Shown here: piece after piece, positions 1 through 17,620 of the stretch
Layout of the letters: each line of letters begins with the position of its first letter
How positions within the stretch are numbered: position 1 is the stretch's first letter
Virus record (IMG/VR): IMGVR_UViG_3300049473_000005
Span: 1-22,907 of that record
Source of the DNA: a virus
Length of the DNA: 22,907 nucleotides
Strand: one strand, 5' to 3'
Program-made: the position numbers and the translations under genes
The notes under the pieces: model-generated
Databases searched by the model: none
What the model was told of the DNA's origin: nothing
Seen by the model: the letters and a program-made list of their open reading frames with translations, nothing else

Positions 1-2287
1 CAGATCCGGTTGTCGATAAACATGTCTCTGCCCCAAAATTGGTTTGAACTGACTGTTGGTTAATCGCCTTGAAACTCACACAATACTCCGTCCCGGATTG
101 CAGACTTGTCATTGTCTCTGTTGCATCCCAGGTTTCAAATGCCTGCCATGACGCCGTGTCTGACGGGGCGCCGGTATCCTTGTTGACGTACTTTCCATTC
201 CATGCCGGGTCGGTTGAGGTCACATATCCGGCCAGCCACGTCCCGGCCGTGTTTGTCCCTTCGTCCACCTCGCTGATGTCGATGGTGTTGTCAGTTGCGT
301 TGTCGAGAGTCGGAGCGCCGGGCGTGTCGGCCAGAGTCGCCCGCTTAAACGGTGCGCTAACCGTTCCCTCATTGCCCTCAGAATCCTTCATTTGAACGCC
401 ATAGCAGTAGCACAGGTTCGTACCAAGGCCCGAATCCGTATAAGTTGTGTCTGCTGATTGCCATCCGCTTGAAGTTCCTCCTGTTCCAAGTGAGGAACAT
501 CCCGCCCCGGCGCAATCATCTGATTCGGGATCAAGGATAAATTGATAACTGATAGGCGGAGAAGCGTCCGATCCGGTTGTCGCCTCCATTGAGATAGCAG
601 AAGTCGAGTCTGCCGTCGGTTCCGTCTGCCATGTTGCGGGATCTGGCGTGGGCGGATCGGTGTCGGCAGGCGGAGCGCCCCCAACATATACATACGCACC
701 GGCATCCCACTGATACGTTTCTCTGTTGACATCTTCAACACTCGGCAGTTGAGAATCAGATCCCCATGTCGTATTCGGCCCGATCCCGGAATAATCGTAT
801 ATAGGGACAGTTTCCCCGTTGATCGTTAACGTTGCCAATGTGCCCACCGAGACATCTACCCCTGCATTGTAGGCATTCGAGTCCGTATCTACAATCGTAA
901 AATCCCCGGTCGCAACATTTGTAAGTCCTGGATCTGCATCAGAGCCGTGTACCTCCTGATTGCCGTAAGACCCTCCGAGGGATTGCAATTGCGCAATCGT
1001 CTTGCTTCCCGCATCCCCCCAATAAACCGTACTACTGTGACTCGGCCAGTAATATATATCGTAATCAGCGGTCATGTTTGTATCCGAATTTGCGTTGATA
1101 TACATCTGCCGGTAGTCGCTTTCATTTGGACGGTTTGAAATAAAAATATTATTTTTTGCCCAATTGGTCATGCTGGGAGCTACGATGTAAATCCCAGTGT
1201 GGTAGTTTTCTTCAGGGGCGACACCGTTTCTGTAAAATGTGTTATTCCATATTCTATACCCGGTTCCTGAACCATTCGTCGATGCCCCGAAAATACCCCC
1301 TCCTTCAGATGATGACGCTATAATGTTAGAAAATATGTTTATGTCTGTATGGGGTTGGCTGCTCTGCCCTGATATGTTGCTCTGCTTTGCACCGTAGACG
1401 TAATTTTCATAAATATAGATATGGTTTTTCCCGCCATTGGACAGATTGATGTTTGCAGGACTCGATGCTGCCCCGTTGTCAAAAATCTTGTTTCTACGGA
1501 CAATGACGTTATATGCGCCGTATTTCATATCGATCCCGTCTTCGCCTTTTTCGCCATCTGCCCCGTGTATCGAATCTGTGTCGTCATTTTTGTGCCCGTG
1601 AATGCTATTCCCTTCAATCAAGAAGTCGTATGGTGCAGTCCCGGCGTTGGTGATTTGAATGCCGTCAATCCCCCAGTTGGCCGAGTTGGCATAAAAATGG
1701 TTGTTTCGATAAATGATATCATGCGAGCCGTTATTCATGGCCGTGGCGTCGGCTGTCGTCCATCCGACATTTTTCCCTACGCAGTCTTCAATCAAAACAT
1801 TGTATGTACCAATACCGTTATAGAATCCTTCTCTTACTTCATGGACGTAAACTCTATATATTTTGATGTCGTGGACACCGCTATTATTGTCAACCGCCTC
1901 ATTGCTGGTTCCCGTTCCAATATCCGTAATTTCGAAATCTTTCAGGATTGTATAGTTTCCGAGATCAATGCCATTCCCAGACCCGTTGGTGTCTATTTTT
2001 GCCCTTCCAGAAGACTCGGATATGCCTGCATATGTCGTGTCGTTAGTACAGTATCCGTCCAGCACTACAGGATTGCCCGAGGTGCCGTAAATATCAGACG
2101 CATCCAGAGACGATGTGAAAGTACCTGAAAAACAGAACGTATCTCCCGCCTTGCTGCCTGAAAGCGAATTGAACTCGGCGGCAGAATAATTTGCTCCAGC
2201 ACCCGTCTGCGTAACGGTATATGTTGCTGAAAAGCCTATGGCCGGGGTTAGAATTAGGAATAAAAGTATTAAAAGTTTTTTAATCAT
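1..2287 (-). CDS. Large beta-helix adhesin with FN3-like tail and signal peptide (partial)
   Basis: The frame is open from ATG 2287 to the left edge (762 residues visible, no stop). Residues 1-22 are a signal peptide (MIKKLLILLLFLILTPAIGFS/A). Residues 23-80 (YTVTQTGAGANYSAAEFNSL, GTSGNPVVLDGY) open a parallel beta-helix that runs to about 480 with many rungs (ILKDFEITDIGTG, FLIEGNSIHGHKN, VIVRRNKIFDNG, RIWNNTFYRNG). A cap follows near 524-533 (QWDAGAYVYVGG). Then come two FN3/Ig-like units, about 540-645 (DTDPPTPDPATW..) and 650 onward (DTPGAPTLDNATDN..), the second ending at the edge with STTGS. The frame begins 1 nt after the previous stop with GGGGTGG 4 nt upstream. Architecture is that of a polysaccharide-binding surface or tail protein; no catalytic site is identified. 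Confidence 0.78.
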   Translation of the reverse strand, partial: MIKKLLILLFLILTPAIGFSATYTVTQTGAGANYSAAEFNSLSGSKAGDTFCFSGTFTSSLDASDIYGTSGNPVVLDGYCTNDTTYAGISESSGRAKIDTNGSGNGIDLGNYTILKDFEITDIGTGTSNEAVDNNSGVHDIKIYRVYVHEVREGFYNGIGTYNVLIEDCVGKNVGWTTADATAMNNGSHDIIYRNNHFYANSANWGIDGIQITNAGTAPYDFLIEGNSIHGHKNDDTDSIHGADGEKGEDGIDMKYGAYNVIVRRNKIFDNGAASSPANINLSNGGKNHIYIYENYVYGAKQSNISGQSSQPHTDINIFSNIIASSSEGGGIFGASTNGSGTGYRIWNNTFYRNGVAPEENYHTGIYIVAPSMTNWAKNNIFISNRPNESDYRQMYINANSDTNMTADYDIYYWPSHSSTVYWGDAGSKTIAQLQSLGGSYGNQEVHGSDADPGLTNVATGDFTIVDTDSNAYNAGVDVSVGTLATLTINGETVPIYDYSGIGPNTTWGSDSQLPSVEDVNRETYQWDAGAYVYVGGAPPADTDPPTPDPATWQTEPTADSTSAISMEATTGSDASPPISYQFILDPESDDCAGAGCSSLGTGGTSSGWQSADTTYTDSGLGTNLCYCYGVQMKDSEGNEGTVSAPFKRATLADTPGAPTLDNATDNTIDISEVDEGTNTAGTWLAGYVTSTDPAWNGKYVNKDTGAPSDTASWQAFETWDATETMTSLQSGTEYCVSFKAINQQSVQTNFGAETCLSTTGS

Positions 2288-2288
2288 T

Positions 2289-3476
2289 CTACCACCCCAC
2301 ATATATCGTGACATAGGTTGGATAATCCGCCGTTGCGCTGATGCCCACAGACCAGAACTCCGTAACCGCCGTTATGTCGTCATAAGAGGCATTGATGGTA
2401 TCAACATCACATCCATCGGCGCAAGTTGACTGCACGTCCGAGTCACAAACCAGCTCGCTCGTCAGGACATCGTTGCTGCTTCCGTCTACCAGATTCAGCG
2501 TGACAGTTCCGGTATCCGTCTTGCACCATACTTTTGTAATAGTGTGGTTCTGAGCGAAAGATATAATATCTCCATACGTGCCTTCTCCGGGGCTTTCGAT
2601 TCTGAAGCCTCTTGAATTGTCCACCCCTATGTCATCGACATATTTCTTATTCGCAGCCTGAAAATCGGTTGTTGGTGCAGAAGATGGCGTGATTGGAAAT
2701 GACGTAAATGTCTTGATCCCCACTATTTCTTCGTCGCCGGACAAATGAACTACGCTCGAATCAAGCGCCCTAAGACCAAAAGCAGTATCAATTCCCGCCA
2801 TCAGTTCGTCAATGGTATCATCATCAGACGACTCGGAAAAATTGGAGTAAGCATCTCCTGCCGTAACGGATATCTGAGATTGGGTTATTCCGGTCAGTCC
2901 AGATCCGTCTCCGGTCGTTCCCAAAGCACCGATATTTGATAGGATCGCTGCGTTATTGGCGCTTCCGAGCATGGTCTGGACATTTGCCGAAGGGGTGACG
3001 GTTGCCCATGTGTCGAGGTCTACATCTCTCGGTTGATAAGTATCAGATATATCCGGGATATCGTCAGAAACAAGTGATCTAAACGTCGGAGCATCCGCTG
3101 CGCCCGTGGTCGGTCCGGCGAATACCTTATTAGCCGATTGATCATCAAGCCCTATCTGTTGATTTATAAGTTCAAGGATAGCGTCAGCATCGGTTGACAG
3201 GGTTACTTCGTCTTGGCCTACCGGCAATGCTGAAATATAAGAAATAATCTTACTTGCACTCCAAGCATGGGTGTTGTCGGTTCTCGTATCATCAAGCAGG
3301 GTTCCCCAAAGAATCTTATGTGCCCTATGGTTAGCAGGGGCGCTTACATCTATCCAGTATAGAACATCATCGAGCTGCGGATCGGTGTTTTCGTCAAGTT
3401 CTGTGGTTGTGTCAGCAAATGCCACTCCTAATCCGATGAACAAGATTAGAATAATTAAAATAAAATATTTTTTCAT
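2289..3476 (-). CDS. Fibre-like protein with signal peptide
   Basis: The 395-residue product opens with MKKYFILIILILFIGLGVAFA/DTT, a strong signal peptide. The mature part has fibre phrases: NKVFAGPTTGAADAPTFRSL followed by VSDDIPDIS (about 120-148), GDGSGLTGITQSQIS, and VHLSGDEEIVGIKTFTSFP with TTDFQAANKKYVDD (about 244-280), which in many phage tail fibres joins repeats. The last 100 residues are a beta domain with four cysteines (CKT.., LVCDS, STCADGCD) that could form disulfides if exported. AAGGT lies 7 nt before ATG 3476, 10 nt after the tailspike stop. It is probably a fibre or adhesin working with the tailspike. No enzyme motif is seen. Confidence 0.72.
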   Translation of the reverse strand: MKKYFILIILILFIGLGVAFADTTTELDENTDPQLDDVLYWIDVSAPANHRAHKILWGTLLDDTRTDNTHAWSASKIISYISALPVGQDEVTLSTDADAILELINQQIGLDDQSANKVFAGPTTGAADAPTFRSLVSDDIPDISDTYQPRDVDLDTWATVTPSANVQTMLGSANNAAILSNIGALGTTGDGSGLTGITQSQISVTAGDAYSNFSESSDDDTIDELMAGIDTAFGLRALDSSVVHLSGDEEIVGIKTFTSFPITPSSAPTTDFQAANKKYVDDIGVDNSRGFRIESPGEGTYGDIISFAQNHTITKVWCKTDTGTVTLNLVDGSSNDVLTSELVCDSDVQSTCADGCDVDTINASYDDITAVTEFWSVGISATADYPTYVTIYVGW

Positions 3477-3486
3477 TTTTTATACC

Positions 3487-5748
3487 TTATACAAAAGTAC
3501 AGGTTGCAAATATTGTTATCCATTCCGTACCAGACCACATAAAGACCCCTGTTTCGTCAACAGCATCGAAAGTCGCCACTTCAGGATCAGATGTTTCATG
3601 GTGCGTTATTGAAACGGTGCTTGAATGAGATGCGTCGGTCATTACAATTGTTTTTATTTGGCCTATAAAATAACCGTCTCCAAGAGTCGCAGAAACGGCC
3701 CCTCCGCTTGAATCAATAGAGGCTGATCCCATATATGGGGTAATCGTAATCGTCCCAGTCAAAACCTCTGTGTCTGGAACATTGTTAATTATTTTATGAT
3801 TTGAGCCTTCAACATAAAAATCAGAAGTTACAGACCCTGAAAAACTATTTCCAGAAATAATGTATCCTGATCCGTCTGTTCCGTATAATCCAATTCCATA
3901 ATTACAACCAACTATAGTATTATTTGAGATAACCATATTACTCATTGATAAACTTTCATCGCTTGAGGTGGTTAGGTTTATCCCTTTCCCTGTCGCATTC
4001 GTATGGATAGTATTCCCTGAAATCACACCACCAAGATAAGGAATATTGTTGAAAAGAATCGAATCTTTATTTGTGCCTGTTGCGTTGTAAAGGGTATTTC
4101 CTATGATTGAAATATTATATGAATTTGTATAAGTCCCCGTAGAAATCTGACATTCTATACCATTTCCTGAATAGTCATAAATACCGTTTCCATAAATGTT
4201 TATATTCGTGCTATCATTATTTACAGCTATACCAGAAACAGAATTTACAACCCCATGAATCATATTTCCAAAAACGTCTATAGAGTTTCCACCGACTTCT
4301 ATCCCAGCAAGTATCCCCGGTTCATAAATTGAATTCCCACCTACCGTTATATTAGAAGATGATGTATGAATTGAAATACCATTGTTATATGTTCCTTCAT
4401 TGCATTTAATTGCATTATTGGAAACAGTGCCATTATAACTTGTGTTCCCTGCTGATATTCCAGAAGTGGCAACATCTGTACTGTCAGTAAGGTCTATAGT
4501 ATTTCCAGAAATTGTAAAATTATTGACCGTATGGACTTCAATCGCTGTCGTATCATCAGTAGCGGTAATTGAAGTATTGTCAATAATATTGTCAGAGATA
4601 ACAACTCCGCTTGCCTCATAAATATCTACACCAGAACCGTCGTTATCATAAATTCTATTCCCCGTTATTATTATATCTTCATGCGAGAGAGACGCATTCA
4701 AGCGAATAACTTCACAGGCGGCATTTTTAAATGTGTTATTTCTTATGGTAAGCCTCTTGATCTGCGCCGTTCCTTGGATGATGTTCATGGTATCAACGAC
4801 GCGAGTCTGGTTAGAACCATTGCCATCAAAAATAAGACCATCAATAAGAACGTCTGTTACGGCATTAGAAAAGTCAACCATATGAGTATCGGAGTTTGCC
4901 GCAAGCTTGATTGTCGCACCGCCGATACCCTTGAAATTGACATATGATTCCGGTATTAAAGAATCGCTGATAAGATATGTTTGACCATTGAAAACTACAT
5001 CTCCGGCGCTTATAGAATCTATTGCCGATTGGATTTCGGAGGTCATATCCGTAGTTCCCGGGGTTGTATTTACCCCCCACCATTTGGGATATACTTTGTT
5101 TATAGACCCTGGTGCAAAATAAAGAGTACCGGAAAAAATAGCACCTTCTTCAACTATAACATTGAAATTGCTTGTAATTGTTGTTGGGGTTGTAAAGGTG
5201 TAGGTGGTGGTTGCTTCACCCGAATTATGAGAAAAATATAAAGTTGCCTTGGTCGTAGTCCCAACTTCTGTGAGGATATCGGTGACTGAATTGCCAGACC
5301 CGACAACGCCCTGGTCAGCTTCGGTATAATCAGGATAATAATAATTACCGGTAACAAGGTATTTCTCATAGGCCGTTGAAGGAACGTAATATATTTGATC
5401 CCCGGAAGAATCCAAAACCTTGAGAGAATAATCACCTTCGACCAATAGAGTAACCGGCGACCCTTCATATAAAGGCACACCACCAGCGCCGGTGCTTATA
5501 GGTTGAGTCACGGCAACAATAGTGCCATCCTCTTGCTGGACGCTTAAGGTCTTTTGGTTGGCGACTATCTCTGGGTCAAGGTCTGGCTTTCCAACGTAAA
5601 TATCGGCATTTGACAACGCACGACCTATGCTTGTATTCGGGAGGTATATGGGAGATAGCTTGACGACATTTAAAGCATATGCAGACTGCAATAAAATTAA
5701 AAATATCGCTGTTAGATATAAAAATATTTTAAACGATTTTCTTGTCAT
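3487..5748 (-). CDS. Tailspike with P22 head-binding domain behind a signal peptide
   Basis: The 753-residue product has four parts. Residues 1-25 are a signal peptide (MTRKSFK, a long hydrophobic run, SAYA/LNV). Residues 31-124 match the P22 gp9 head-binding domain: ADIYVGKPDLDPEIVANQ parallels GKIYIGQIDTDPVNPANQ, then EDGT..VTQP, AGGVPLYEG and YSLKVLDSSGDQIYYV. Residues about 225-640 are a right-handed beta-helix rich in NN/GN turns (ITGNRIYDNDGSG, ISGNTIDLTD, FGNMIHGVVNS). Residues about 655-753 form a beta end (ATLGDGYFIGQIKTIVM..FMWSGTEWITIFA). The head-binding domain should join gp10/gp4 in the tail and the helix bind or cut surface polysaccharide. The signal peptide is hard to reconcile with cytoplasmic assembly. 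ATG 5748 has GGGG 6 nt upstream and overlaps the previous stop (ATGA). Confidence 0.82.
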   Translation of the reverse strand: MTRKSFKIFLYLTAIFLILLQSAYALNVVKLSPIYLPNTSIGRALSNADIYVGKPDLDPEIVANQKTLSVQQEDGTIVAVTQPISTGAGGVPLYEGSPVTLLVEGDYSLKVLDSSGDQIYYVPSTAYEKYLVTGNYYYPDYTEADQGVVGSGNSVTDILTEVGTTTKATLYFSHNSGEATTTYTFTTPTTITSNFNVIVEEGAIFSGTLYFAPGSINKVYPKWWGVNTTPGTTDMTSEIQSAIDSISAGDVVFNGQTYLISDSLIPESYVNFKGIGGATIKLAANSDTHMVDFSNAVTDVLIDGLIFDGNGSNQTRVVDTMNIIQGTAQIKRLTIRNNTFKNAACEVIRLNASLSHEDIIITGNRIYDNDGSGVDIYEASGVVISDNIIDNTSITATDDTTAIEVHTVNNFTISGNTIDLTDSTDVATSGISAGNTSYNGTVSNNAIKCNEGTYNNGISIHTSSSNITVGGNSIYEPGILAGIEVGGNSIDVFGNMIHGVVNSVSGIAVNNDSTNINIYGNGIYDYSGNGIECQISTGTYTNSYNISIIGNTLYNATGTNKDSILFNNIPYLGGVISGNTIHTNATGKGINLTTSSDESLSMSNMVISNNTIVGCNYGIGLYGTDGSGYIISGNSFSGSVTSDFYVEGSNHKIINNVPDTEVLTGTITITPYMGSASIDSSGGAVSATLGDGYFIGQIKTIVMTDASHSSTVSITHHETSDPEVATFDAVDETGVFMWSGTEWITIFATCTFV

Positions 5749-10102: not shown

Positions 10103-10674
10103 TAAATTATACTCGTAATAAGTCCATCTGTCACTGTTACCGTGTCGCCGTCTCCGTTTGTAAAGGTATCAGTTATACCGGTTCCCTTCCATGCGACAAG
10201 ACCATCAACAACCAATGATAGAGCCGTTACAACCGCTGAAAGGGCTGTTAAAGCTGCCTGTGTTGCAAAATATGTGCTATCGTGGCTGTCCAAAAGGTCG
10301 GCGTCTAATCCGCTTCCAGATCCAGCCCCGCTTATCCCTGTTGTCGGAAGTTTTACGGTTCCATCAATATCAAGAGTCGTAGTTGGTGTGTTGGTTCCTA
10401 TACCAAGTCGTTTATTTACATTATCCCAGAATAAATCCGGGTCTTCAGCCAACAACTCACTGTCTGCAAATGGAATCGAGCCATCTGAAAAGTCGGTTGG
10501 AATGGCCTCTATTTTGAAATCGTCAATAATCCCGGCAATAGTTATCAAATTATCAACAATTGTCAGGTAGTCTTCGATGAACGCATCTTTGACCTCTGGC
10601 GGTAAAAGTGTTCTCAGATCATTTGCGCTTAATACCAAACCCCTTAATCGTTGTACGGTTGTCAGATCAGGCAT
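10102..10674 (-). CDS. Fibre/needle-like trimeric tail protein
   Basis: The 190-residue protein sits right after gp10, where P22 encodes its tail needle gp26, but has no clear sequence match to it. Residues 1-55 are helical. Residues 60-107 (DFSDGSIPFADSELLAEDPD, NVNKRLGIGTNTPTTTLDID) are phrases typical of phage fibres. Residues 122-160 (GLDADLLDSHDSTYFAT then AALTALSAVVTALSLVVDGL) look like a fibre unit followed by a short heptad coiled coil. The C-terminal 28 residues (GITDTFTNGDGDTVTVTDGLITSII) are a beta tip seen at many fibre ends. I infer a thin trimeric fibre or needle plugging the tail. GGAG lies 7 nt before the ATG. Confidence 0.6.
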   Translation of the reverse strand: MPDLTTVQRLRGLVLSANDLRTLLPPEVKDAFIEDYLTIVDNLITIAGIIDDFKIEAIPTDFSDGSIPFADSELLAEDPDLFWDNVNKRLGIGTNTPTTTLDIDGTVKLPTTGISGAGSGSGLDADLLDSHDSTYFATQAALTALSAVVTALSLVVDGLVAWKGTGITDTFTNGDGDTVTVTDGLITSII

Positions 10675-12088
10675 ATGTAAGCTCCATCAATGCAAAGGCC
10701 ATACGTGATCTTGAAACGCCCCTAAATCTAAACCCTATCCAATCATTGCAATAACCAAGACGCCGTAAAATAAATCTCTGACCATAATTATTAGGCTTTC
10801 CGTATTGCATCCAGTGTTCGCCTCCGTAAGAAACGCCATTGCTTGTAATCGCCATGGCCACCGTTGCATCAAGGGTTGTTGTGTGCCCTGGAATAGTCTC
10901 AATGCTTATTTCATCAACAGACATAGTTTCAAGATCAATGAAAGGCGTGTATAGAACCCACTCTGTGATTGCGTCATATTGCGTAGCTACGTCGTTATCC
11001 AAAATCCCTATCTTAGAACCTAATTTGTCTCCATATACCCATTTGCCCGATCTGGCGTCTAACACGCCGTTGATCCCCCGATAAGTCGTGTCTCCTGTTC
11101 CGGATTTCAATATAGTCCATGCGATTTCTTTCCCAAATTCAGAGGCTACGGTCACATTAAAACAAAGCGTCTCTTCAGGGAGATGAACCAGAACAAACGA
11201 AACGTCATTTTCTACCCGGCACTCCATTCTCATATCCGAAAGTTCAGGTTCAGAATATTTAGCGATAATCTTGTCTATTTCACGGGTTGAGACTTTTACG
11301 GCACTACCAATTCCAACAGCGTAAACCGAAACAGCACCATCTCTGTATCCACCGGTAATGTAAAAACTCCCGCCGCCGAGTTCACATTTTGCATGAGTCG
11401 CAACTATCCCTATTTTCTGGCCCCTTGTTGCTATTCTTGTAAACGCGAAATTGGCACTCGCAACATTGGTGAAATATTCAAGGCTGTATCTGCCGAATAC
11501 GATGACTTTATCGTCCTGAGTCAAACCTATCCCGAGTGAAGGATCAGGGGAAAACTCGGCAGTTGCATACTGTAATGGGTTAATGCTCGTTTCATCAGTC
11601 AATTCGGTGTGAAATAAATATTCACCGTCCGTCATAAAATAATAGTTATCCACCCAAACCCCATCGATAGGAGATCCGAGGTCAGAATCGACAACTTCAT
11701 TAAATCCGCTTGCAGGGCTGTAAAGAAAAAACCTTCCATCTGCTATGACTCCCTGAGTGTTAAAGCCGTACAAGTCAATAAGTCTCGCCTGTTTTGTTCC
11801 AGGGATAGTTCCTAATTCTGTAACGGTTCCATCGGTTGAAACTGATATTAACTTATTTCCTGATACTCTATAAAGTTCGTGAAATCGCTCGTTATAATTC
11901 GCGCCCCGGTCAGCACCAAATCCATCGGAAAGTTTCGTTAGACCGGGATACTCGATCATATACCCTTTTGCGCCAAGAATATCCTTTCTAACAGCGTACA
12001 TGTTTACCGGGAGTGCATCCCGGTAATCAGTAGCAGGGCTGTTGTCTATGCTGTCGCCCTTGATGAGGGTTATGGGTACTGTTGGCAT
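10667..12088 (-). CDS. Tail hub / DNA stabilization protein (P22 gp10-like)
   Basis: The 473-residue product compares with 472 in P22 gp10 and has matching landmarks: ALPVNMYAVRKDIL..GYMIEYPGLTKL (25-53) against YLPVNMLATPKEIL..GYLRSFPGITKR, GRYSLEYFTNV against SSTIEYFSL, VSFVLVHLPEETLCFNV against ELLIIHLPRHVLVYD, and NDWIGFRFRGVSRS near the end. The protein attaches below gp4 in the tail and carries tailspikes and the needle. It starts at ATG 12088 with AAGGA 5 nt upstream, after the lectin gene. It carries no signal peptide, in contrast to the preceding four genes. The end overlaps the next gene by 8 nt. Confidence 0.92.
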   Translation of the reverse strand: MPTVPITLIKGDSIDNSPATDYRDALPVNMYAVRKDILGAKGYMIEYPGLTKLSDGFGADRGANYNERFHELYRVSGNKLISVSTDGTVTELGTIPGTKQARLIDLYGFNTQGVIADGRFFLYSPASGFNEVVDSDLGSPIDGVWVDNYYFMTDGEYLFHTELTDETSINPLQYATAEFSPDPSLGIGLTQDDKVIVFGRYSLEYFTNVASANFAFTRIATRGQKIGIVATHAKCELGGGSFYITGGYRDGAVSVYAVGIGSAVKVSTREIDKIIAKYSEPELSDMRMECRVENDVSFVLVHLPEETLCFNVTVASEFGKEIAWTILKSGTGDTTYRGINGVLDARSGKWVYGDKLGSKIGILDNDVATQYDAITEWVLYTPFIDLETMSVDEISIETIPGHTTTLDATVAMAITSNGVSYGGEHWMQYGKPNNYGQRFILRRLGYCNDWIGFRFRGVSRSRMAFALMELTYA

Positions 12089-12096
12089 TATTGTCC

Positions 12097-13500
12097 TTAA
12101 TTCAGTTCGAGACCTAATCCTAAATTGTTAATTCCTTTCGTTTCTCCATATTTTCCAGCAAAACCACCAGTTCCATATACATAGGCCCCTATTTCATATT
12201 TTAGTCCTTGGTCTACAATCACAACACCATCAGGCCATGTCGATTCGGAAGCAAGCCCATAATTATACGGCGATCCAATGACTGTTCCGGCTGCAAGACA
12301 AGGACTCCCCGCCTGAAGCGTAAAGTCTCCCCCTGCTGCGTTGGTGAAAGGATCTGATATGCCCCAAATGGAGTCCGTATCCGTATATGTGCCGTCACCG
12401 GATGCCGAAGCCACGTTGAATGCATTATTGGTCCCTGTTACGGTTTTACCGGCAGCGATTACGATATCTTCTCCAAATTCGTCATAGCCAAGCGTGTTTA
12501 TAATCGTTGCTGACTCGTTGGCATAGATTGGGCTTTTGAACATGGAGACTTGTATAATAGAATTACCTGTGCCTTTGATTCTCAATGGCGATACATCAAA
12601 AAGTGCTACCTGTATCGAAGAATCATTGCCCGCTAGATCAAGACCATACCCTCCTCGGACGAATCGAAGATAATACCGACCCGTCGACTTCGTGGTGGTG
12701 CTCGCGTACCCGTTGTGGAAGTACACGTAGAACGCATCGTCGCTACTGCACGGACGCGTAGATGCCGTCCAATGCCGCGCATTCGTCGTGCTCGGAAATG
12801 CCGTGGTGTCGATGGCCGGGTTGCAGTTTCCTATATTGACAATGGACGGCAGTTCGAAACGATTGGGGATCCGCCAGTCCGCATAACCACCGACCTGAGC
12901 CGTATTGACCGATGTTAAAACATCCCAAATCGTATCGCCTGTGGTCGCAAAATTGGTCGATACCGGGCCTTCATCCGTTAATGCCTCAACGGTGGTAATT
13001 ACTGTCGTTGATATATTGGCAACTGTGTAAGTTCCGTCGTTGCTCACCGTACCAGATACCGTGAAAGTCCTACCGGCTACAAGAACAGACGTATCAAAGG
13101 GAGTTCCTGCGGCGGCGGTGATAGTTTTTCCCCCGCTGTCAAATGTTACGGAAGTGGTGGCAAGCGTCCAGTTCGACCAAAAAAATTGTCCATCAGTTTG
13201 AGGCCCAAGATCAGACTGAATCACCTCTCTCATCCACATTAACCCTGTTCGATTGTCTCTCACGCAAGCGTTGCTGGTTGCATGGGTCTTGCCGTTTTCA
13301 GTGACATTTACGGTAGATGCATACTGTCCTGTGGTCAAAACCGTGTAAGACTTGGAGACACCAAGTTCAAGATCCCCGTCATCTCCGGTCTGGTATGAAT
13401 CTTCCTGACCTGTTTGAAGTAGTCTCGACAAGTCATCTGCGTTGGCAAATGAGCCGGATATAAAAAATAACAGGATTAAAAATATAAATGCTTTTCTCAT
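12097..13500 (-). CDS. Secreted DUF1566 C-type-lectin protein with beta-helix cap (signal peptide)
   Basis: The 467-residue mosaic has, in order: signal peptide 1-19 (GSFA/NAD); DUF1566/Lcl-like lectin halves at 78-92 (ACVRDNRTGLMWM) and 191-284 (IWDVL..GGYADWRIPNRFELPSIV, RHWTAST, FYVYFHNGY, YYLRFVRGG); a beta-domain inserted between them at about 115-188 (VTFDSGGKTIT..TFTVSGTVSNDGTYTVANIS), of a type common in phage structural proteins; and a right-handed beta-helix end at about 285-445 (IIQVSMFKSPIY, FGEDIVIAAGKTVTG, GGDFTLQAGSPCLAAG, YEIGAYVYG). The DUF1566 fold is a ligand-binding scaffold and a known diversity-generating-retroelement target. The lectin core is more GC-rich than its flanks. 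It sits between gp4-like and gp10-like genes and is probably a receptor-binding or surface-adhesion protein; the signal peptide makes its location uncertain. Confidence 0.78.
   Translation of the reverse strand: MRKAFIFLILLFFISGSFANADDLSRLLQTGQEDSYQTGDDGDLELGVSKSYTVLTTGQYASTVNVTENGKTHATSNACVRDNRTGLMWMREVIQSDLGPQTDGQFFWSNWTLATTSVTFDSGGKTITAAAGTPFDTSVLVAGRTFTVSGTVSNDGTYTVANISTTVITTVEALTDEGPVSTNFATTGDTIWDVLTSVNTAQVGGYADWRIPNRFELPSIVNIGNCNPAIDTTAFPSTTNARHWTASTRPCSSDDAFYVYFHNGYASTTTKSTGRYYLRFVRGGYGLDLAGNDSSIQVALFDVSPLRIKGTGNSIIQVSMFKSPIYANESATIINTLGYDEFGEDIVIAAGKTVTGTNNAFNVASASGDGTYTDTDSIWGISDPFTNAAGGDFTLQAGSPCLAAGTVIGSPYNYGLASESTWPDGVVIVDQGLKYEIGAYVYGTGGFAGKYGETKGINNLGLGLELN
12649..12780 (-). other. 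Candidate diversified region of the DUF1566 lectin gene
   Basis: This covers residues 241-284. A run of C-ending codons (TTC TAC .. TAC TTC CAC AAC .. TAC .. AGC ACC ACC) occupies the lectin ligand-binding loop positions, as expected if AAC codons of a template were mutated at adenines. Between 12661 and 12740 I count 43 G+C of 80, against 22 of 60 at 12541-12600. No template repeat or reverse transcriptase is seen in the window. Confidence 0.35.
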
Positions 13501-13847
13501 TTAATCACCTCCGGCTGTTCGACTGTCTTTTTGGTCACGGTAGGTTGTTTTTTCGGGTTGTCGTAATGTTTTATATCTATGTCAGACAAGGATTTGCCTT
13601 TGCTGTCCAAGATTTTTTCGTTTATTATATCCTGCGATCCATCAGCGTTATAGGTATAGGTATCCACACGCTGTCTTACCAATTTTCCATCCTGCCCATA
13701 GCAGTTTTCCGTCCATGTGGACATTCGGCCATTTGCATCTTTCTGGACTACCGTTGAACAATCGTCCGTCCATTGAGGGGTAGACCACCCGGCAAACGCA
13801 AATACCGGGATCAATATAAAAACAAGAGATAATATAAAAGATTTCAT
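13497..13847 (-). CDS. Secreted small protein with YD-like hairpins (signal peptide)
   Basis: The 116-residue product begins with a signal peptide with a good site, VFAFA/GWS. The mature part has two cysteines (C30, C49) that could form a disulfide after export, and repeated beta-hairpin phrases of the form KDANGR.., GQDGKL.., YNADGS.., DSKGKS.. resembling YD/RHS-like or MORN-like short repeats. The C-terminal 20 residues are a Lys/Pro/Thr-rich tail. No enzyme motif is seen. GGAGG lies 6 nt before the ATG, inside the end of the previous gene. It overlaps the following lectin gene by ATGA. A role as partner or anchor of the lectin protein is possible from coupling only. Confidence 0.65.
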   Translation of the reverse strand: MKSFILSLVFILIPVFAFAGWSTPQWTDDCSTVVQKDANGRMSTWTENCYGQDGKLVRQRVDTYTYNADGSQDIINEKILDSKGKSLSDIDIKHYDNPKKQPTVTKKTVEQPEVIK

Positions 13848-14207
13848 TTAGGGCCTCCAATATTGTATTTTACAGTTTTTTAATGTCCAGTTCGTTCCTA
13901 TTTGCGCGCCGTCTGTAATCACCAAATTTTGCAATTCAATGTACGTTTGGCCGTTCGGAAGTATGGATTCAATGGTTGCGTTTCTAATGATAATCGGGTG
14001 CCCATCGGTACCAGATCCATTTGGAAGCCAAGTTCCTGTAAAAGCATTTCCACCGCCATCGACAATATCATCACCGGCGAGCGTTTCCGCTGCTACGAGT
14101 GCGGTGAATGTTGTGTATGTCTGCCCAGGGCCAATATTATAAGTCGCCCCCCACACCGGCCCCGCCATCAGAACCAGCGAGAGGATTATAAATAGGAGTT
14201 TTTTCAT
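13848..14207 (-). CDS. Secreted short beta-helix N-terminal module (signal peptide; probable fragment)
   Basis: The 119-residue product has a signal peptide (MKKLLFIILSLVLMAGPVWG/A) followed by ATYNIGPGQTYTTFTALVA, the opening of a right-handed beta-helix protein, and two or three rungs (GHPIIIRNATIESI, YIELQNLVITDGAQI, WTLKNCKIQYW). It stops after these rungs, while full proteins of this kind carry ten or more. The protein at 1-2287 has the same layout (signal, ATYTV..GANYSAAEFNSL, then GNPVVLDGY) but continues for hundreds of residues. I read it as a truncated relative whose distal part was lost or replaced; a C-terminal beta-helix cap occurs two genes downstream (12097-13500). It could still fold as a small product. 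Its stop is directly followed by the next ATG. Confidence 0.7.
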   Translation of the reverse strand: MKKLLFIILSLVLMAGPVWGATYNIGPGQTYTTFTALVAAETLAGDDIVDGGGNAFTGTWLPNGSGTDGHPIIIRNATIESILPNGQTYIELQNLVITDGAQIGTNWTLKNCKIQYWRP

Positions 14208-14584
14208 TATCTTCTCTCACCAATATTGAAGATTATCTTTGCGCCCTGGGTTAAGGTCGCATCCGTAAAATCAAAGCATAGCCTTTTCCGCTGATTGTAA
14301 TACATCACCCTAGGCTCTCCATCACCCGAGATTAAAAGAACTGACGTAGGGGACGTAGCTACATTTCCGGTATATTCACGGATCGTAACTTGGTCATCGG
14401 CAGCTCCAGGGATTAAAACAACAGATTCCACGTTGATTTCCATATCCATGATGTAATCACTGTCGATAGCGGATACCTCGATTGTCCTGTTTGTTTTATT
14501 TACCGTGTTTGCCGACCATCCAGCTGTGACAAAAAACAGCAAGGCCATCAAAACCAAGATTGTTGAAAATAGATATTTTTTCAT
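14207..14584 (-). CDS. Secreted small beta protein of unknown function (signal peptide)
   Basis: The 125-residue product has a clear Sec-type signal: MKKYL, a hydrophobic core to about residue 20, and a cut near AGWSA/NT. The mature part (about 100 aa) is beta-rich (TIEVSAIDSDYIMDMEI, ESVVLIPGAADDQVTIREY, EPRVMYYNQRKRLCFDF). The alternation and the 'VTIRE..G' phrase are like small phage virion proteins that sit beside gp4 or decoration genes. One cysteine is present and there is no lipobox. It begins the four-gene signal-peptide cassette between gp4-like and gp10-like genes. AAAGGA lies 5 nt before the ATG. TAATG overlap with the next gene suggests coupled translation. Function not recognised. 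Confidence 0.7.
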   Translation of the reverse strand: MKKYLFSTILVLMALLFFVTAGWSANTVNKTNRTIEVSAIDSDYIMDMEINVESVVLIPGAADDQVTIREYTGNVATSPTSVLLISGDGEPRVMYYNQRKRLCFDFTDATLTQGAKIIFNIGERR

Positions 14585-14596
14585 TGTTTTCCTTTC

Positions 14597-15316
14597 TTAT
14601 GAGGTTTTTTCTCCGGTGGTTACTTCAAAATAAATTATCCTGGTTATTTTTCTCCCAGTGCTGGTTGTCGCAATGATCTTGACCTTAAAAACGCCCACGG
14701 CATCGGCCTGTATTCGGTAAGAAATATCAGGAGTCGTTAGGGAGTCGGATACAATCGTCAATCCGGTGTTGGCATCGATACTATAATCATCCACAGTCTC
14801 CGGACTTATCAGGTACGAATCAAAATGCTCAATAAAATCATTGATATCATCGACAATCATCCGATTAGTCGCGCAAGTGTTCGGGGCCTCTGGAACAGGA
14901 ATGTAAAATCGGCTTGTTTGAGCATTGCCGGCACCCATTGACTGTCTTCGAGGATACTGAACCTGTCTCGGATTCGCAGTTGCGGCATAAAGAAACGACA
15001 TTTGAGCAGAAGCGTTCTTAAAAAGAGTAGGATCAGGCTGCATCCCTTTACCAAAGTCAGACAATAACCTCACGGCAAGAACACACTCGAACGAATACCA
15101 GAATTTCTTGTCAAGCCCTGATGGAGAATTAACGTCAGGGTCATCTTCGAGATAGTAGCCGGTGTTAATATTCCTGGCATAAAACTCATTCGCCATGCCC
15201 TCAAGACGCCTCAAGGCCGTTTCAATGTCGCTCGGTGATGGCTCTATGGTCATTCCCGATATCCGCATCTGAGAATAAGCGCCGTTGATTATATCGCCCT
15301 TAAGATCGTTCGGCAT
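14597..15316 (-). CDS. Tail accessory factor (P22 gp4-like) with extra Ig-like C-terminal domain
   Basis: Residues 1-145 match P22 gp4 (166 aa), the ring that closes the portal after packaging: ALRRLEGMANEFYARNINTGY (34-54) parallels DDLEAMMAEWYQDGIITGY, and YPRRQSMGAGN..FYIPVPE (121-143) parallels YPSRMPTGSGN. P22 gp4 also has peptidoglycan hydrolase activity; I cannot confirm the needed residues here. Residues about 150-239 are additional: RMIVDDINDFIEHFDSYLISPET, then Ig/cadherin-like beta strands (TGLTIVSDS, SYRIQADAVGVFKVKIIATTSTG, KITRIIYFEVTT). Such domains occur in phage fibre-tail adaptor proteins. GGA lies 8 nt before the ATG, within the previous gene. The next P22 partner (gp10) is displaced by a four-gene insert. 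Confidence 0.8.
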   Translation of the reverse strand: MPNDLKGDIINGAYSQMRISGMTIEPSPSDIETALRRLEGMANEFYARNINTGYYLEDDPDVNSPSGLDKKFWYSFECVLAVRLLSDFGKGMQPDPTLFKNASAQMSFLYAATANPRQVQYPRRQSMGAGNAQTSRFYIPVPEAPNTCATNRMIVDDINDFIEHFDSYLISPETVDDYSIDANTGLTIVSDSLTTPDISYRIQADAVGVFKVKIIATTSTGRKITRIIYFEVTTGEKTS

Positions 15317-16644: not shown

Positions 16645-17010
16645 TTAAACTGATACAACCGGTGTGTTCGCTGCGCCACCCATGCCCAGGATAATCCAGC
16701 CAACGGTGTCATTAACATAAAGCAGAGTGACAAAGTCACCGGCTGCGGTAAGAACAATGGTTGCAAACCCTGTGCATGTGGACGGCGTTATTGTTCCTGC
16801 TCCACCGGTAGCGGTAAGGTTAATAACCAATATTTGGCCGGGTTTGCCGTCTGCCAAAGTAAGGGCTTCGGCCCCGCCTGTAGTTTTGGCAACATACGCA
16901 TGAGTGACAGGAATCGCCAAAGTAGCGCCCGCAACTGCAATGGTAAGGTCATCCGTTGCGTCGGAGTCCTGCTGATGATACATTTCTGCAATTCTAAATA
17001 TTCGTGACAT
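16645..17010 (-). CDS. Small beta-rich head-associated protein (decoration candidate)
   Basis: The 121-residue protein has no cysteine-rich or catalytic motif. After a polar N-terminus (MSRIFRIAEMYHQQDSDATD) it is a run of short beta strands with Gly turns. From residue 50 (LTLADGKPGQILVINLTATG) to 113 (VGWIILGMGG) it follows a pattern common in phage structural proteins: GxxGQ, then Thr/Gly-rich strands, then a closing W. It follows coat (before the HNH insertion), so a capsid decoration role is plausible but not shown. The ATG at 17010 has AAAGGA 7-8 nt upstream, inside the HNH reading frame. The same pattern recurs at the C-terminus of the tailspike at 3487-5748. Confidence 0.7.
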   Translation of the reverse strand: MSRIFRIAEMYHQQDSDATDDLTIAVAGATLAIPVTHAYVAKTTGGAEALTLADGKPGQILVINLTATGGAGTITPSTCTGFATIVLTAAGDFVTLLYVNDTVGWIILGMGGAANTPVVSV

Positions 17011-17551
17011 GACATTTTCCTTTCTTTTTTATAAGTTTGTGTTTCAAAGCATACTGGTATGCAGGGCTTGAGCTATCACAACCTGCCCAATTAAGGCATT
17101 GTTCGGCGGCAAGACGCATTAAAACAGCCTCATATTTATAACTAAAACATCCAAGATTGCTTTGAATATTATTGTTCCTGATTCCTGCGCGCCATTTTTT
17201 TTCTCTATTATCATACCAAACGCCCTTTATCCCAGACTTGTTGTTTGATGGGTTGCCCCTATTTCTTTGATTACAAGAAACCGATGCCTCCCTTAAATTA
17301 TCTATTTTATTATCCGATCTCTTTCTGTTTTTATGGTCAATTTCAGGTTCAGGCATATATCCATGATGATATAAATAAATCAATCTGTGTGCTGGATATT
17401 GCTTTCCATCGATTGTAATAACAATATACCCATTACGATGCATACACCCAGCGTTTTTATGGACTCTCCCTGATCCTGATTTTTTCCAGTACAGCGTTCC
17501 ATCTTCATAATAAAATAGTTCTTTTAAATACTCTTGTGTTAATGTTTTCAT
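16994..17551 (-). CDS. HNH homing endonuclease with AP2-like domain
   Basis: The start used here is the second in-frame ATG (17551, 185 aa): AAAGGAG (17561-17567) touches the first ATG at 17560 with no spacing but sits 9 nt from the second. The N-terminal half holds an HNH_3-type nuclease: H55-R (AHRL), D72-H73 (EIDHKNRKR), N85-L-R and N94-Q-R-N. Residues about 106-150 (SGIKGVWYDNREKKWRAGI) form an AP2/NUMOD-like DNA-binding region. This is the usual build of free-standing phage homing endonucleases, which cut alleles lacking the gene and spread by repair. It sits between coat and a small head gene, and its last 17 nt overlap the next gene and contain that gene's ribosome-binding site. A hairpin upstream could shut off its translation. 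Confidence 0.88.
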   Translation of the reverse strand: MKTLTQEYLKELFYYEDGTLYWKKSGSGRVHKNAGCMHRNGYIVITIDGKQYPAHRLIYLYHHGYMPEPEIDHKNRKRSDNKIDNLREASVSCNQRNRGNPSNNKSGIKGVWYDNREKKWRAGIRNNNIQSNLGCFSYKYEAVLMRLAAEQCLNWAGCDSSSPAYQYALKHKLIKKKGKCHVTNI

Positions 17552-17620
17552 GTTTGACATCTCCTTTATTAGGTTGATTGTTTATTTACAATGTCACTTT
17601 TTTATGGAAATGTCAAACAT
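17550..17620 (-). promoter_or_regulatory. Hairpin hiding the HNH ribosome-binding site and start codons
   Basis: In the minus-strand RNA, bases from 17620 to 17606 (AUGUUUGACAUUUCC) pair with bases from 17564 to 17550 (GGAGAUGUCAAACAU): 15 continuous pairs, one of them G-U, with a 41-nt loop. The 3' arm contains the GGAG and both possible AUG codons of the HNH gene. There is no U-run after it, so it is not a normal terminator. Confidence 0.75.
17588..17616 (-). promoter_or_regulatory. Possible promoter overlapping the HNH hairpin
   Basis: TTGACA (17616-17611) lies in the 5' arm of the hairpin. Seventeen nt further is CATTGT (17593-17588), a poor -10. A transcript starting about 7 nt downstream would lack the 5' arm and leave the HNH ribosome-binding site free. 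The -35 is perfect but the -10 matches the consensus weakly, so this is tentative. Confidence 0.25.

Follow-up and report, generated by a model that had tools for sequence, protein, structure and literature searches.

A probable variable region of a diversity-generating retroelement in the lectin gene of a P22-like phage contig

Can the target gene of a diversity-generating retroelement (DGR) still be recognized once the retroelement is no longer beside it? DGRs are usually catalogued by a reverse transcriptase (RT) next to a pair formed by a template (TR) and a variable region (VR), so that targets without an RT are invisible. The question is raised by one lectin gene in a 22,907-base IMG/VR record, referred to hereafter as the window, whose profile matches identify it as late genes of a P22-like podovirus. 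The original prediction was that positions 12649-12780 have the codon pattern of a DGR variable region, either served by a system elsewhere or left as a frozen or borrowed product. We conclude, with a probability of roughly 0.7, that the stretch is the VR of a DGR target gene detached from its retroelement, RT-less, probably frozen and horizontally acquired.

The window encodes a portal, scaffold, coat, head-tail adaptor, Hc3, ejection-type proteins and a tailspike with a Head_binding domain. Signal-peptide-like hydrophobic starts were seen by eye in seven minus-strand late genes (2-2314, 2289-3476, 3487-5748, 12097-13500, 13497-13847, 13848-14207 and 14207-14584), the tailspike with the Head_binding domain included. 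Such starts are odd for a P22-like phage, and the L109 homologue of orf125 does not have one. An ORF resembling HNH-type homing endonucleases, also picked out by eye, lies directly downstream of the coat gene (16994-17560).

Lectin domain and codon run

The product of the lectin gene matches the Lcl_C/DUF1566 profile (PF07603) over residues 79-282 with 88.3 bits, against a curated cut-off of 34.9. An N-terminal hydrophobic stretch is followed by the lectin domain (residues 79-283), within which a beta domain is inserted at about residues 109-188, and by a C-terminal beta-helix remnant (residues 284-467). Homologues of the lectin were collected by protein search, to which a scan of genome contigs added a single locus (L027). 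Neither the lectin protein nor the two beta-helix parts had a match among INPHARED phages, and no near-identical second copy of the gene turned up.

The structure predicted for residues 74-284 from a 31-sequence alignment had a pLDDT of 88.7, with values of 93-97 over the VR. Its best fold match was the C-terminal domain of Legionella Lcl (PDB 8q4e, Z 11.8, 110 residues, 22% identity), and several C-type lectins, including snake ones, matched with Z of 7-9; on the basis of the model and these matches, the VR is predicted to be set in a C-type-lectin fold. The inserted beta domain (model residues 36-115) matched a phage tail tube (Z 8.8). A sequence-profile search of the PDB with alignment A2 gave no match, while the wider alignment A3 found 8q4e. 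A model of the full-length protein was poor (pLDDT 52) and its fold matches were meaningless; it was discarded, the lectin domain alone having been modelled well.

Positions 12649-12780 correspond, on the minus strand, to residues 241-284 of the 467-aa ORF. The predicted run of mostly C-ending codons (TTC TAC GTG TAC TTC CAC AAC GGG TAC GCG AGC ACC ACC) is present at residues 257-269. As had been claimed, the core is richer in GC than the DNA around it (local GC 0.58, compared to 0.48 for the lectin gene). GC3 and C3 are 1.00 and 0.67, respectively, over residues 256-270, compared to 0.45 and 0.25 over the whole gene. Only four of the 7,150 15-codon windows in the genes of the contig have a GC3 of 15/15, all four in the region of residues 256-270, and the top eight GC3 windows all fall in the core-run region. 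Given the amino acids and the codon usage of the contig, P is about 6e-7 for 15/15 GC3 and about 9e-5 for C at all eight TR-asparagine columns between 258 and 269. Both P values were computed after the run was seen, and the contig-wide ranking is therefore to be preferred.

Table 1. Features of the lectin locus (coordinates are those of the window)
Feature	Position	Strand	Basis or remark
Head closure Hc3 / P22 gp10-like gene	10667..12088	-	Downstream flank of slot; 94% identical in L102
DUF1566/Lcl_C (C-type-lectin fold) gene, 467 aa	12097..13500	-	Lcl_C profile and model
3' half of right-handed beta-helix gene, in frame behind VR	12097..12651	-	Ends in tag GINNLGLGLELN
Putative DGR-type VR, residues 246-283	about 12652..12765	-	Codon-by-codon alignment with TRs of L021, L055, L079, L034 and L069
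Core NNC/NNG codon run, residues 256-270	12691..12735	-	Codon statistics and TR/VR column mapping
orf116, conserved lectin-family companion, part of cassette	13497..13847	-	Copies at other lectin/DGR loci
5' part of interrupted beta-helix gene, 119 aa	13848..14207	-	Signal-peptide-like start
orf125 and Ad3 head-tail adaptor	14207..15316	-	Upstream flank of slot; 96-97% identical in L102

Templates of related phages and their trace in the window

An ideal DUF1566 template pattern, TKSAACGTSAACTTCAACAACGGSAAC, matched 16 viral stretches; an RT was found in 15 of these 16 records (14 above the curated cut-off) and an Lcl_C gene in all of them. A wider pattern yielded 74 TR-like stretches. One homologous locus, L021, is a complete DGR with target, Avd, TR and an RT that was confirmed in full, Avd and RT being assigned by bAvd (PF22296), RVT_1 (PF00078) and the PHROG 'Avd protein of DGR'. 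Its TR and VR differ over 90 nt at 15 adenines and at no other base. Four more loci (L034, L055, L069 and L079) have homologous targets with VR, TR and Avd, and the window gene is 48-52% identical to these and to the L021 target, with some of the alignments covering only a portion of the gene. Avd and TR lie directly behind the target in those DGR-bearing homologues that were examined, and the lectin gene stops at VRG or VRN in every homologue read.

In 99 distinct TR/VR pairs from these loci, adenines were substituted at 1405 of 2345 sites (59.9%) and other bases at 7 of 5080 (0.14%). The altered codons map to window residues 258, 260, 262, 263, 265, 267-270 and 272-274, while those mapping to residues 256, 257, 259, 261, 264 and 266 are unchanged. 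Within the core run, the TR-asparagine columns are 258, 260, 262, 263, 265 and 267-270.

An RT-less homologue, L022, served as the main negative control. Cellular DUF1566 controls were few: L093 and L098 look ordinary, while L091 has a VR-like codon pattern. The L091 gene, from a genome of the same phylum as L027, contains the NNC run CTC, ACC, GGC, TCC, ACC, TAC, AGC, AGC.

Mismatches at adenines are by themselves weak proof of mutagenesis, since an ordinary lectin also departs from an asparagine-rich template, and the direction of change was therefore compared. Over codons 251-276, the window differs from the L021 and L055 TRs by 19 A-to-N and 1 N-to-A changes, compared to 20 and 12 for L022. 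Against foreign TRs overall, the window shows 13-19 A-to-N and 1-3 N-to-A changes, like the RT-bearing members, and L022 shows 15-20 and 12-15, respectively. Non-A mismatches between the foreign TRs and the window VR number 9-20 in 42-50 sites.

The third bases of the window VR equal those of the L034 TR at 28 of 37 codons, a level that none of 20,000 draws based on codon usage reached (mean 12.9). The excess is modest when the asparagine columns are taken by themselves (P 0.009, or 0.045 with local GC3), and at 4 of the 12 TR-asparagine columns the third base of the window differs from that of most TRs. In eight of ten homologues, residues 246-282 share 35-51% of amino acids with the window and 22-29 of 37 third bases; in upstream 37-codon windows of the same eight, third-base identity is at most 17-20 of 37. 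Along the lectin gene, amino-acid identity is thus lowest, and third-base identity highest, across residues 246-282. This inversion is absent in L001 (18/37) and L022 (6/36). Silent sites that are kept while residues vary are a prediction of template-driven rewriting, and the pattern therefore supports a DGR footprint. Taken together, the alignments show an adenine-directed substitution footprint in the window VR. The call of a DGR-type variable region was therefore upheld: the homologues are DGR targets, the same residues vary, and the footprint is A-directed and conserves silent sites. The predicted span overlaps the VR but has to be trimmed, because the VR itself covers about 12652-12765, up to the conserved VRG at residue 283.

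Missing machinery and an interrupted beta-helix gene

No RVT_1 match was found within the 22.9 kb record, no near copy of the VR on either strand of the window in an A-tolerant sliding comparison, and no significant tblastn match of the L021 Avd in the window. A complete DGR within the window was therefore rejected, and the claim that neither RT nor template lies there held; the record is a fragment, and these absences are statements about the contig. A strict TR-like pattern built from the window VR had no match in IMG/VR. No hairpin follows the VR in the window, which says little because most RT-bearing homologues likewise have no canonical one within 130 nt. An AT-rich segment (TTATTT...TATTT) lies right behind the VR stop in L021 (from 10808), L034, L055, L069, L079, L019 and L020, and may be the homing element of this lineage, where phage BPP-1 has a GC hairpin.

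In a tree of the gene portion preceding the VR, members with and without an RT are intermixed, which requires the RT state to have changed at least twice. The window gene stands together with RT-less members; the supported group of five to which it belongs also includes the RT-bearing L079. Two other RT-less members have a truncated avd behind the VR: 37 residues are 97% identical to the L021 Avd in L020, and 40 residues are 85% identical in L019. These stubs indicate that, within the lectin family, deletion has removed the DGR core. The remnants (L020, 8969-9079; L019, 10787-10906) are cut at almost the same point (HHKYVIGA and HHKYVIDAD) and the sequence that follows differs; the cut point could reflect either a shared deletion or a retained element.

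The VR ends at residue 283 of 467, so that, as predicted, it lies in mid-gene rather than at the 3' end, and the 184 residues beyond it are a beta-helix tail. Two genes upstream of this tail, the ORF at 13848-14207 is 47% identical to the N-terminus of a single beta-helix ORF in L089, and the two halves, when joined, are colinear with that ORF (E 2e-28). Against L089, the tail by itself reaches 44.7 bits, compared to 24.6 for the best shuffled score. In L102, whose flanks are 94-97% identical, the same slot holds an uninterrupted beta-helix gene of 751 aa, the C-terminus of which is 49% identical to the tail over 92 residues (E 6e-17). A search of IMG/VR with only the C-terminal part gave no relative, and its kin surfaced solely through L089 and L102. 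In L103-L108 and L110-L113, Hc3 lies almost directly behind Ad3. The colinearity with L089 and the intact slot gene of L102 indicate that an exchangeable slot gene received an insertion of about 1.2 kb, a cassette made up of orf116 and the lectin gene.

Genes 36-48% identical to orf116 lie beside a lectin or DGR in L019, L020, L021, L022, L027, L034, L055, L065, L076 and L084; orf116 itself has no Pfam or PHROG match. Across at least 10 loci, orf116 lies on one side or the other of the lectin gene. The window lacks the AT-rich segment found behind the VR stop in the RT-bearing homologues and in L019 and L020, this segment having been removed together with the lectin stop codon by the fusion. 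No direct repeat could be clearly tied to the insertion, the longest shared string being 8 nt.

Different slot proteins encoded ahead of Hc3 end in similar tags: GINNLGLGLELN in the window (12097-12135), and GMNSLGLGLVLH and GLTKLGMSLKL at the other loci (L102 near 3788, L109 near 7872). The tag is perhaps a virion anchor or an export signal. A second beta-helix protein of the window (2-2314), truncated by the left edge of the contig, has N- and C-termini similar to those of the interrupted one.

Weighing the readings, and comparison with known systems

The alternative that survives best, which we consider improbable but worth weighing, is continued diversification of the VR in trans, with the RT and TR located in the portion of the phage genome beyond the contig, in the host, or on a phage that co-infects it. 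The contig is incomplete, so a remote RT and TR are conceivable, and remote targets are acknowledged in the literature (PMC8144416). The silent sites of the VR differ from those of foreign TRs no more than they do in RT-bearing members, so that there is no positive sign of decay. Against this, the usual place of Avd and TR behind the target is occupied by beta-helix coding sequence and Hc3, and the AT-rich segment is gone. None of the 74 TR-like stretches carries window-specific features, and no RT or Lcl_C was found in 12 relatives of the phage collected through Hc3, two of them 40-46 kb long.

That the gene is an ordinary DUF1566 lectin, with C-ending codons due to local codon bias and residues due to family consensus, is very unlikely. 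Even ahead of the VR, over residues 181-245, GC3 is elevated (0.62), and the residues YVYFHNGY look close to the DUF1566 consensus. However, codon usage even at the local GC3 fails to give the 28/37 third-base agreement (mean 15.2, 0 of 20,000 draws), amino-acid and silent identity are inverted inside the VR only, and the RT-less L022 shows no such agreement (11, compared to 11.4 expected). Least probable of all, to the point of being nearly negligible, is an assembly chimera in which the DGR target of another phage was joined to the contig: the contig is metagenomic and relatives of the phage have no copy of the cassette, but matching halves of one beta-helix gene lie on both sides of it without a break in reading frame and the conserved terminal tag of the slot is kept on the fused C-terminus.

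We therefore return to a VR separated from its DGR. The borrowed origin that had been offered as one option is favored by the phage relatives, which have neither a DUF1566 gene nor an RT, and by the interruption of the beta-helix gene; we infer that the cassette was acquired horizontally. In the donor phages, a template RNA would have been copied by an error-prone RT that misreads adenines, and the cDNA would have replaced the 3'-terminal VR of a C-type-lectin gene, turning AAC and AAT codons into NNC and NNT and randomizing the ligand-binding face. A P22-like phage may then have gained orf116 and the lectin gene with the VR already mutagenized, and without TR, Avd or RT. The cassette would have landed in a beta-helix gene, the variable slot between orf125/Ad3 and Hc3, with loss of the lectin stop codon and the 3' flank of the VR and in-frame fusion of the beta-helix C-terminus. 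The lectin presumably acts in host or surface binding, and the phage has most likely been left with a single, fixed binding specificity.

The variable patch is probably frozen, since RT and template are missing here and the gene appears to have been borrowed and spliced into a tail-type protein; the VR would thus be inactive at present as a DGR target. Sequence just downstream of the VR is required for homing in BPP-1 (PMC3240598), and the C-terminal placement of VRs has been ascribed to such cis elements (PMC8144416), so that a VR in mid-gene whose flank has been replaced would probably make a poor target, an argument that is weakened by the scarcity of the canonical hairpin in RT-bearing relatives. 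As a speculation to which we give little weight, RT-less lectin cassettes might circulate between unrelated phages as pre-diversified modules in tail-type genes, maybe to be re-diversified in trans by a co-infecting DGR phage.

The lectin family thus spans intact DGRs, members with a truncated avd and what appears to be a captured orphan VR in the tail-type gene of another phage, and the fate of a hypermutable binding protein after loss of its mutator becomes testable. The silent-site test, in which the protein varies while third bases match foreign templates, can detect orphan targets where no RT is present. To judge from our searches, the novel points are the capture of a target by another phage, the placement of its VR in mid-gene ahead of a foreign beta-helix, and the existence of relatives that keep truncated avd stubs.

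Among the Pfam domains of DGR targets, DUF1566 is reportedly the most frequent (PMC6642488). In domain, fold, variable codon columns, A-directed footprint and the TR form A(W/F)NVNFNNGN, the window resembles the DUF1566/C-type-lectin targets of that report and of L003-L018, L021, L034 and L055. Unlike these targets, the window has no RT, Avd or TR, and its VR lies in mid-gene with a beta-helix C-terminus behind. BPP-1 mtd is likewise a phage C-type-lectin protein diversified by A-to-N retrohoming, but with RT, Avd, TR and a required hairpin behind the VR (PMC3240598), none of which was found in the window. The closest solved fold is that of the Legionella Lcl C-terminal domain (8q4e), from which the window domain differs in being phage-encoded and in its inserted beta domain. 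In Nanoarchaeota, VR fragments without an RT have been reported as fossils or as remote targets (PMC4372165); like the window, they combine a VR bearing signs of adenine mutagenesis with an RT-less locus. In contrast to those fragments, the window VR lies in a tailed phage, apparently by horizontal transfer, and the avd stubs of L019 and L020 show one route by which RT was lost in the lectin family.
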